A program made the translations under genes and the position numbers. A stretch of 37,123 nt of DNA, taken from positions 1-37,123 of the forward strand of contig LOEZ01000023.1 in the NCBI GenBank assembly GCA_001516055.1. The letters run 5' to 3'. A model generated the notes under the pieces. The model was not told the origin of the DNA. It did no database searches and was given only the letters and a program-made list of their open reading frames with translations. This document shows positions 1,596-30,126 of the stretch, in pieces (position 1 is the stretch's first letter; each line of letters opens with the position of its first letter). The stretch comes from Gracilibacter sp. BRH_c7a. Its GTDB lineage: Bacteria > Bacillota > Desulfitobacteriia > Desulfitobacteriales > Syntrophobotulaceae.

Positions 1596-1614
1596 TATAC
1601 CCAATAGGGGTATA
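1596..1614 (+). promoter_or_regulatory. Palindromic operator TATACCC-N5-GGGTATA (CsoR/CstR/FrmR-like)
   Basis: TATACCC (1596-1602) and GGGTATA (1608-1614) are perfect inverted repeats around AATAG. The site covers the predicted transcription start, the usual position for a repressor. A/T-flanked C and G tracts are typical of operators of the CsoR/RcnR family (copper, nickel, persulfide or formaldehyde sensors). The same palindrome lies in the promoter of the FmdB-type gene at 30100-30118. No regulator gene of this family is in the window, so the family assignment is inference. Confidence 0.7.
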
Positions 1615-1630: not shown

Positions 1631-1918
1631 TTGAAGTTAATCATCACGGAGAAAGCCAAAAACATCATTCATAAAAAAGGAAACATTTTTACCATAAGTT
1701 ATGTAGCTTGTGCCAGTTGAGCAGGAACTTATAAAAGCCTCTGGTCAGGGGCAAGTTCAAAATCTGAAAATGAGCAAGATTATCTTAAGTATGAGCATGA
1801 GGGAATTACTGTTTTTATTCACAAGCTCCTAGAAACATCCGATAGCTTAGAAATAGACTTGAAATCTAACCTGCCTCTCTTTGGACCGGCATTTAATGTA
1901 AAAGGAATCTTTGTTTAA
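1631..1918 (+). CDS. HesB/IscA-like selenoprotein with in-frame UGA (Sec30)
   Basis: The 95-residue frame runs from TTG (1631) to TAA (1916-1918), interrupted only by TGA at 1718-1720, codon 30. Reading UGA as selenocysteine gives VACASUAGTYKS, a CxxU redox motif with Cys27 and Sec30. The fold looks like the HesB/IscA family: N-terminal ITEKAKNIIHKKG, a beta strand before the motif, EHEGITVFI in the middle, and a C-terminal FGPAFNV. The second Cys cluster of true IscA scaffolds is missing, so this is a HesB-like redox protein and not a standard Fe-S carrier. HesB-like selenoproteins are a known bacterial family. A ribosome site AAGGAGG (1614-1620) lies 10 bases before TTG. A bacterial SECIS hairpin follows the UGA, and a sigma-A promoter with an operator precedes the gene. 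Ordinary gene callers would split or miss it. Confidence 0.88.
1718..1758 (+). promoter_or_regulatory. Bacterial SECIS element in the HesB-like gene
   Basis: After the UGA (1718-1720), GAACTT (1725-1730) pairs perfectly with AAGTTC (1753-1758). Inside it GCCTCT (1737-1742) pairs with AGGGGC (1747-1752, one G-U). The apical loop is GGUC. A six-base bulge lies on the 5' side. The loop starts 22 nt after the UGA. A GGUC apical loop is also present in the E. coli fdhF SECIS, where loop G and U contact SelB. Confidence 0.85.
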
Positions 1919-29778: not shown

Positions 29779-29813
29779 GAAAAGTTCCCTCAGATCTTTG
29801 TCTGAAGGAACTT
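29779..29813 (-). terminator. Terminator after the FmdB-type gene
   Basis: On the minus strand AAGTTCCTTCAGA pairs with TCTGAGGGAACTT (one G-U) and is followed by TTTT. The opposite strand has a C/A mismatch, so the hairpin serves minus-strand transcription. Confidence 0.8.
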
Positions 29814-29826
29814 AAAAATACTGCTT

Positions 29827-29874
29827 TTAATTTTTAATAGGAACACACGGTTCCTTAAATTAACATCCAGCTCA
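29827..29874 (-). promoter_or_regulatory. Candidate bacterial SECIS element at the end of the FmdB-type gene
   Basis: Read on the minus strand after the UGA (29872-29874), a seven-base outer stem (UUAAUUU, 29857-29863, with AAAUUAA near 29827-29835) and a six-base inner stem (AGGAAC at 29850-29855, GUUCCU at 29839-29844) enclose the loop CGUGU. The loop starts 22 nt after the UGA, the same distance as in the HesB-like gene, and has G in its second position, meeting usual bSECIS rules. Confidence 0.6.
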
Positions 29875-30066
29875 GCCAAAGCCAGAACCAGATTTAGAAG
29901 AAACTGTATTACCACTTTTGCTGCCACCAATATTAACTGACGTAAATCGTTGGCTAATATCGTTGCTTGCACATTTTGGGCAGATCTGTTTATCCTTGGC
30001 ACTGATACTACAAAAAACAGAGAATTTGTGGCCACACTCTTTGCAGACCAGATCATAACTAGGCAT
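29860..30066 (-). CDS. FmdB-type zinc-ribbon protein, probable selenoprotein ending in Sec-Ala-Gly-Cys
   Basis: The N terminus MPSYDLVCKECGHKF is the FmdB/CxxC zinc-ribbon signature, with knuckles at Cys8/Cys11 and Cys29/Cys32, followed by a Gly/Ser-rich tail. The frame meets TGA at codon 65 and then reads Ala-Gly-Cys-TAA. Treating the UGA as selenocysteine gives a 68-residue protein ending GFG-Sec-AGC, a UxxC redox pair; many FmdB proteins have Cys-rich tails there. Support: a SECIS-like hairpin, the same GCNGGA after UGA as in the HesB-like gene, and a shared operator. If UGA were a stop, the protein would end at GSGFG after 64 residues. GAGGAG lies nine bases before ATG 30066. A longer frame to 30159 would run over the promoter and is rejected. 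Confidence 0.72.
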
Positions 30067-30091
30067 CTCAACAACTCCTCTTGGAAAGGTG

Positions 30092-30126
30092 ACACACCAT
30101 ATACCCCGTCTGGGTATATGGTGTGT
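30092..30126 (-). promoter_or_regulatory. Operator of the FmdB-type gene, perfect inverted repeat with TATACCC-N5-GGGTATA core
   Basis: Fifteen-base perfect arms (30092-30106 and 30112-30126) surround five bases. The core (30100-30118) is identical in arms and spacing to the operator at 1596-1614. It begins just after the -10 box. Read towards each gene, both sites have the form TATACCC-A-N3-GGGGTATA. No U run follows, so it is not a terminator for lutC. Confidence 0.72.

Follow-up and report, generated by a model that had tools for sequence, protein, structure and literature searches.

Selenoproteins of the FmdB zinc-ribbon family were previously predicted from two marine reads of the GOS metagenome (TIGR02605; PMC2398784). 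In the catalogues, the selenocysteine (Sec, U) of the FmdB selenoproteins lies in a CxxU or UxxU motif, and the family has no representative accession (PMC9312934, PMC13188914). A Sec near the stop codon is also known from the 'star' selenoproteins of NCBIfam (UXX-star, NF041114 and NF041211; KCU-star, NF033934; SaoC, NF040734), which resemble the present case by name and catalogued motif. In mammalian thioredoxin reductase, a flexible C-terminal arm carries a Cys/Sec redox pair that receives electrons from the flavoenzyme domain. Here we analysed a DNA stretch of 37,123 nucleotides (the window) from Gracilibacter sp. BRH_c7a, in which one gene is predicted, with a probability of about 0.9, to encode an FmdB-type zinc-ribbon selenoprotein with Sec near its C-terminus (-Phe-Gly-Sec-Ala-Gly-Cys). 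It shares with the GOS FmdB selenoprotein the zinc-ribbon family and a predicted Sec with a SECIS-like element. However, the Sec of the GOS protein sits in CxxU/UxxU, whereas here it sits on a tail behind the ribbon, one to five residues before the stop, in more than 90 Firmicutes genomes. The 'star' selenoproteins are other protein families, and TIGR02605 was the sole match above cut-off in the NCBIfam scan of the window FmdB. In contrast to thioredoxin reductase, the arm is attached to a zinc ribbon, not to a flavoenzyme.

No entry for a C-terminal FmdB selenoprotein was found in the 2026 catalogue, which covers 119 families and subfamilies (PMC13188914), or among the NCBIfam 20.0 matches of the window protein, and deep-Sep does not mention FmdB; the selenoprotein families of Haft 2023 and 2025 were compared via the table of the 2026 review and NCBIfam. 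Given the review's own rule that the same domain with a different Sec position makes a separate subfamily, the C-terminal FmdB would be a new one. Thus, the C-terminal FmdB selenoproteins apparently represent a widespread and uncatalogued subfamily. Sequence comparison shows that the UGA is conserved, that the SECIS-like hairpin covaries, that Sec and Cys replace each other and that the partner Cys follows a rule; it also brings out the Sec machinery of the genome and the association with the operator. The functional reading leans on the operator and the neighbouring genes, which vary among clades.

The features of the locus are as follows.
29860-30066, minus strand: fmdB-type gene with UGA predicted to be read as Sec, ending in GSGFG-Sec-Ala-Gly-Cys and TAA (translation and profiles)
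29944-30066, minus strand: FmdB zinc ribbon with two CxxC pairs, residues 1-41 (profiles; strands and a helix in AlphaFold2, pLDDT about 70)
29875-29943, minus strand: flexible, Cys-free arm rich in Gly and Ser, with a pLDDT of at most about 50 (sequence and AlphaFold2)
29872-29874, minus strand: UGA codon 65, putatively read as Sec (conserved in relatives together with the hairpin)
29863-29871, minus strand: Ala-Gly-Cys codons 3' of the UGA, the Cys being the only partner Cys of the tail (translation)
29839-29855, minus strand: SECIS-like hairpin AGGAAC[CGUGU]GUUCCU in the 3'-UTR, loop 22 nt past the UGA (folding and comparison with relatives)
29782-29813, minus strand: second, separate strong hairpin, likely the transcript terminator (folding, -18.2 kcal/mol)
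30075-30080, minus strand: Shine-Dalgarno-like GAGGAG 5' of the ATG (sequence reading)
30100-30118, no strand assigned: palindrome TATACCC-n5-GGGTATA ahead of the fmdB gene, resembling a CsoR-family operator (pattern scan)

The preliminary description of this DNA had noted an FmdB-type frame that runs to a UGA and continues with Ala-Gly-Cys and TAA, and both translation and profile scores bear this out. With the UGA read as U, the frame at 29860-30066 on the minus strand encodes a protein of 68 residues, MPSYDLVCKECGHKFSVFCSISAKDKQICPKCASNDISQRFTSVNIGGSKSGNTVSSKSGSGFG-U-AGC-stop, with the UGA as codon 65 (29872-29874). The protein matches the FmdB profile TIGR02605 (49.6 bits against a cut-off of 31.3, E 3.1e-13) and Zn_ribbon_8 (PF09723; 47.6 bits against 34.4, E 1.6e-12), and its two CxxC pairs near the N-terminus (Cys 8, 11, 29 and 32) place it in the FmdB family. 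Sec65 lies in the context G-U-A-G-C, apart from any CxxU/UxxU motif of the GOS type, and the ribbon positions are all Cys. Since the four ribbon Cys are kept, the Sec is by its position not a ligand of the ribbon zinc site. The AlphaFold2 model is of low confidence (pLDDT 61) and leaves disordered the Gly/Ser-rich arm of about 34 residues that bears the Sec.

Relatives of this gene are numerous. Ninety-five Sec-tailed FmdB genes, coding for 94 distinct proteins in 92 genomes, end in ...F(G/S)-UGA-1 to 5 codons-stop; they were taken by score from profile searches and their species are related, so the counts are not independent events. A read-through search of genomes recovered, in the same order (including Paradesulfitobacterium), the tail ...FG-UGA-Ala-Gly-Cys-stop, with codons that differ at synonymous sites (GCA/GCT/GCG-GGN-TGY). 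The tail of Acidaminobacter is FG-U-Ser-Ser-Cys-Lys, and profile searching across 398 Firmicutes genomes gave, among others, FS-U-Gly-Gly, FG-U-Gly-Ile, FG-U-Ala-Ser-Cys, FG-U-Ala-Ala-Arg, GG-U-Arg-Ile and FS-U-Gly, all with one to five codons between the UGA and the next stop. These sequences probably define a Firmicutes subfamily of FmdB in which a flexible Gly/Ser arm mostly bears F(G/S)-Sec-(1-5 residues) at its end. A scan of the 398 genomes with the pattern TTYGGNTGA...TGYTAR returned many false matches, yet also three further FmdB clades. The preliminary description had drawn attention to the likeness between the hexamers after the two UGA codons of the window (GCTGGA and GCAGGA). The likeness does exist, but it is not shared by the whole family: the UGA of other members is followed by GGN or AGN. 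The hexamer was set aside as evidence for recoding. In one relative (L110, G142:C1:1789428-1790237), the tail reads GG-U-Arg-Phe-U-Cys-Arg-Gly, with two in-frame UGA codons three codons apart before the stop.

Besides the Sec, a tail Cys is found in 93 of the 94 proteins, located only upstream of the UGA in 70, only downstream in 21, on both sides in 2 and on neither in 1, the exact figures being inflated by clade structure. The p-values computed alongside these counts disregard kinship, the one for selB also drawing on a rough table, and they carry no weight here. Tails with a downstream Cys are seen in no fewer than three separate clades (the order plus Acidaminobacter; families f5 and f116; and G151 of family f40). 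As the downstream Cys occurs where the upstream one is missing, the codons after the UGA behave as translated protein. The Sec and this one Cys, on either side, would form a selenenylsulfide pair. The presence of a single Cys within reach of the Sec suggests such a bond, and hence that the arm may serve as a mobile thiol/selenol redox hand, with disulfide or persulfide (sulfane sulfur) chemistry as its likely task. The C-terminal Sec with its partner Cys thereby gives a concrete chemical hypothesis for FmdB, a family common in bacteria. Under standard stop annotation, the fmdB genes would come out two to six residues short, and the reactive residue would be lost from databases and recombinant work.

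The Sec position is exchanged with Cys in some relatives. The UGA is found at the same place in homologues, and Cys takes its place in L027 and in L188, which ends in SG-Cys-Pro-Met-Arg-Phe and TAG; its relative L185 ends in GG-U-Ala-Met-Lys-Phe, and the two are grouped in the tree of the core domain. That tree requires about 12 changes between U and Cys, 4 of which are forced by well-supported branches. One locus classed as a U form by rule (L024) is actually Cys-tailed and was excluded from later counts; two others (L028 and L029) are borderline. Furthermore, many genomes with selB keep a second, Cys-tailed FmdB paralogue, indicating that Sec is not essential to the FmdB family. In L124, L125, L136, L154, L145 and similar loci, the tail of this second FmdB is rich in Cys (for example SCSGGSCSGCSGC), and in most cases no SECIS-like hairpin accompanies it.

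The region upstream of the gene offers the best clue to its partner process. The palindrome TATACCC-n5-GGGTATA, of which none is expected by chance in the window, stands ahead of both the fmdB gene and a CC/Se selenoprotein gene. The latter gene (1631-1918, plus strand; UGA 1718-1720), previously labelled HesB-like, scores above the cut-off of the CC/Se motif family NF041239 and not as a HesB model; its palindrome, of the CsoR type, lies at 1596-1614. It resembles the fmdB gene in the Sec-Ala-Gly context and the operator-like palindrome, but belongs to another protein family and has an internal, not a terminal, Sec. In the source genome (G000), seven sites match ATACCC-n5-GGGTAT, including the two in the window (1596-1614 and 30100-30118); the others are at L191, L194, L195, L196 and L197. 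These others lead a CsoR-family regulator gene followed by thioredoxin, rhodanese-domain genes, a SelO-like gene, an ArsM-like methyltransferase gene accompanied by a radical SAM gene, and a gene for a BASS/ACR3-like transporter; the gene behind the palindrome at L191 belongs to PF02583. The set of seven looks like one regulon with two selenoproteins. Across the order, the palindrome precedes 12 of 22 U-form genes (0.9 expected by shuffling), compared with 6 of 71 U-form genes outside the order (2.0 expected) and 3 of 45 Cys-tailed genes (1.3 expected). In the order, fmdB would thus often be placed under a CsoR-family operator common to thioredoxin and rhodanese genes, the regulator presumably being a member of that family. 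The CsoR family includes the CstR proteins, sensors of reactive sulfur that often repress rhodaneses (PMC10318464). In some clades of relatives, fmdB also lies near genes for CoA-disulfide reductase, thioredoxin reductase or thioredoxin. Multihaem cytochrome genes were seen upstream of fmdB in L013, L014, L016, L018, L019 and L021; the one in L018 is similar to ExtM from operons for selenite/tellurite reduction, although it scores below cut-off.

Given these surroundings, we put the chance that the Sec-tailed FmdB acts in thiol or persulfide redox at about even. The main rival retains the selenoprotein but has its Sec/Cys tail bind or deliver a metal or metalloid (Zn, Cu, As or Hg). Such a role would suit the zinc ribbon and the CsoR-family operator-like site, as many members of the CsoR family sense Cu or Ni, and it would agree with the ArsM-like methyltransferase and the BASS/ACR3-like transporter led by other sites of the source genome. 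The regulator of the source genome also has a Cys...His-x3-Cys pattern, which we take to resemble that of copper CsoR. However, most tails have a single partner Cys and no ligand cluster, and the operator partners and neighbours include thioredoxin, rhodanese-domain, CoA-disulfide reductase and thioredoxin reductase genes. Operator and neighbours would thus favour thiol or persulfide chemistry, and we consider the metal role unlikely, although it is the strongest of the alternatives. A fuller form of the redox reading, which we hold tentatively and at somewhat less than even chance, is that a large subfamily was missed by annotation because its Sec is nearly the last residue and its SECIS lies past the stop, that it belongs to a persulfide-responsive regulon together with the CC/Se selenoprotein, rhodaneses and thioredoxin, and that the Sec arm may read or reduce sulfane sulfur.

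A further possibility is that a radical SAM/SPASM enzyme encoded nearby, a RiPP-like maturase, takes the tail as its substrate and cross-links the Cys or Sec. In six genomes of the order (L003, L004, L033, L036, L038 and L041), the U-form fmdB starts 14-33 nt (215 nt in L038) past the end of a radical SAM/SPASM gene of RiPP-maturase type, and a relative of the latter is found at another operator-like site of the source genome (L196). Nevertheless, no such gene lies beside fmdB in the window or in most other families examined, and the similarity to maturase models falls below their cut-offs, making this role improbable.

In the preferred reading, UGA65 would be decoded by Sec-tRNA(Sec) and SelB with the help of a bacterial SECIS hairpin just past the true stop. 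Under the opposite reading, translation simply stops at the UGA to give a protein with ...SGFG as its C-terminus, and the hairpin acts in termination or is some other structure of the 3'-UTR that has nothing to do with decoding. In its favour, the window hairpin by itself is modest. This hairpin (29839-29855, minus strand) has a stem of 6 bp and an energy of -5.5 to -6.5 kcal/mol, and 4 of 200 shuffled sequences folded equally well. As the preliminary description had noted, its loop position and loop G are SECIS-like: the loop starts 22 nt past the UGA, and G is the second loop base. The published bSECIS model demands a loop of 3-9 nt with G among its first two bases, 16-37 nt after the UGA, on a stem of 4-16 bp with an energy of -7.5 kcal/mol or lower (PMC13188914). 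The window hairpin (CGUGU, 22 nt, 6 bp) fits every geometric term, but is weaker than the energy limit; the full model, including -7.5 kcal/mol, is passed by 58 of the 95 family hairpins, and the other 37 miss the energy limit. Rfam at its gathering threshold gave no match anywhere in the window, and lax Rfam matches near the hairpin were rejected as chance. The hairpin of the window alone is therefore weak evidence, and it is the comparison with relatives that lifts the case far above chance.

Among the 95 U-form genes, a hairpin with a loop G follows the UGA by about 20 nt, mostly in the 3'-UTR. Its loop starts at a median of 20 nt past the UGA (interquartile range 18-21), and in 89 of the 95 hairpins a G is found at one of the first two positions of the loop. 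Hairpins reaching -5 kcal/mol or better are present in 88 of 95 U tails, compared with 3 of 47 Cys tails and 6 of 69 other TGA-ended ORFs; 87 of 95 U tails and 1 of 69 control ORFs combine such a hairpin with a second stop 1-4 codons on. The preliminary description had proposed covariance of the stem as a check, and the stem does covary among relatives. For every one of its six inner pairs, several Watson-Crick types are found, GC, CG and AU among them (59 distinct stems), and in the alignment of the order alone the covariation exceeds all 500 shuffles and drops once the partner is slid. A covariance model trained only on the order found UGA sites in other families (L151, E 3e-5; L082, 4e-4; L091, 1e-3) and, among the 66 Sec and 30 Cys loci searched, matched no Cys-tailed locus. 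Its recovery in other families was partial, with 16 matches at E up to 1 in these 66 plus 30 loci, two of them off the gene, presumably owing to the G+C-rich stems of those families. A bacterial SECIS past the stop is free of coding constraint, so the roughly 90 natural elements of these genes would make a clean set from which to learn what SelB recognises.

The stops themselves also speak against ordinary termination. An early second stop may occur in any gene, and 22% of control ORFs have one within 5 codons of the TGA. Yet TGA ends 90 of the 92 FmdB genes that have no Cys among their last four residues, and in 88 of these 90 a second stop follows 1-5 codons later; L027 and L188, the two exceptions, have Cys at the U position. 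In FmdB genes with a Cys close to the end, the stop is TAA (24), TAG (9) or TGA (19), some of the TGA cases being U forms with a close upstream Cys. Moreover, the stronger hairpin at 29782-29813 is the likelier terminator, which leaves the one at 29839-29855 without an evident role in termination, and a second hairpin is visible further on in several relatives. Hairpin position, loop G and covariation all match the SECIS model, relatives have Cys in place of U, and a partner Cys on one side of the UGA largely excludes one on the other. The preliminary description had named unrelated sequence past the UGA of homologues, or an unconserved hairpin, as grounds for refutation, and neither applies. 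We thus consider an ordinary stop very improbable; the Sec reading advanced in the preliminary description gains support from the relatives, the Cys exchange and the covarying hairpin alike.

The source genome (98 contigs, 4.1 Mb, 96% complete) contains selA, selB above its cut-off and a tRNA-Sec match of 65.6 bits, and should thus be able to decode UGA as Sec. Among the U-form genomes tested, 86 of 87 have selB, the remaining one being 84% complete, against a background of 263 of 398 genomes; the genomes of five Cys-tailed forms of the order (L012, L022, L023, L024 and L026) are without selB above cut-off. Translation of the UGA as another residue, by reassignment to Trp or leaky read-through, would explain the open frame, but is the least credible reading of all, as UGA terminates ordinary ORFs at the same loci (69 control ORFs) and the U form tracks selB, has SECIS-like hairpins and exchanges with Cys, not Trp.

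If this subfamily was missed, other selenoproteins with Sec beside the stop may have been missed as well, and the search recipe of a UGA, a few codons, a stop and a 3'-UTR hairpin is general. In the Cys form of the L185 group (L188, genome G205), a G+C-rich hairpin directly follows the TAG and is perhaps a SECIS relic or a terminator.
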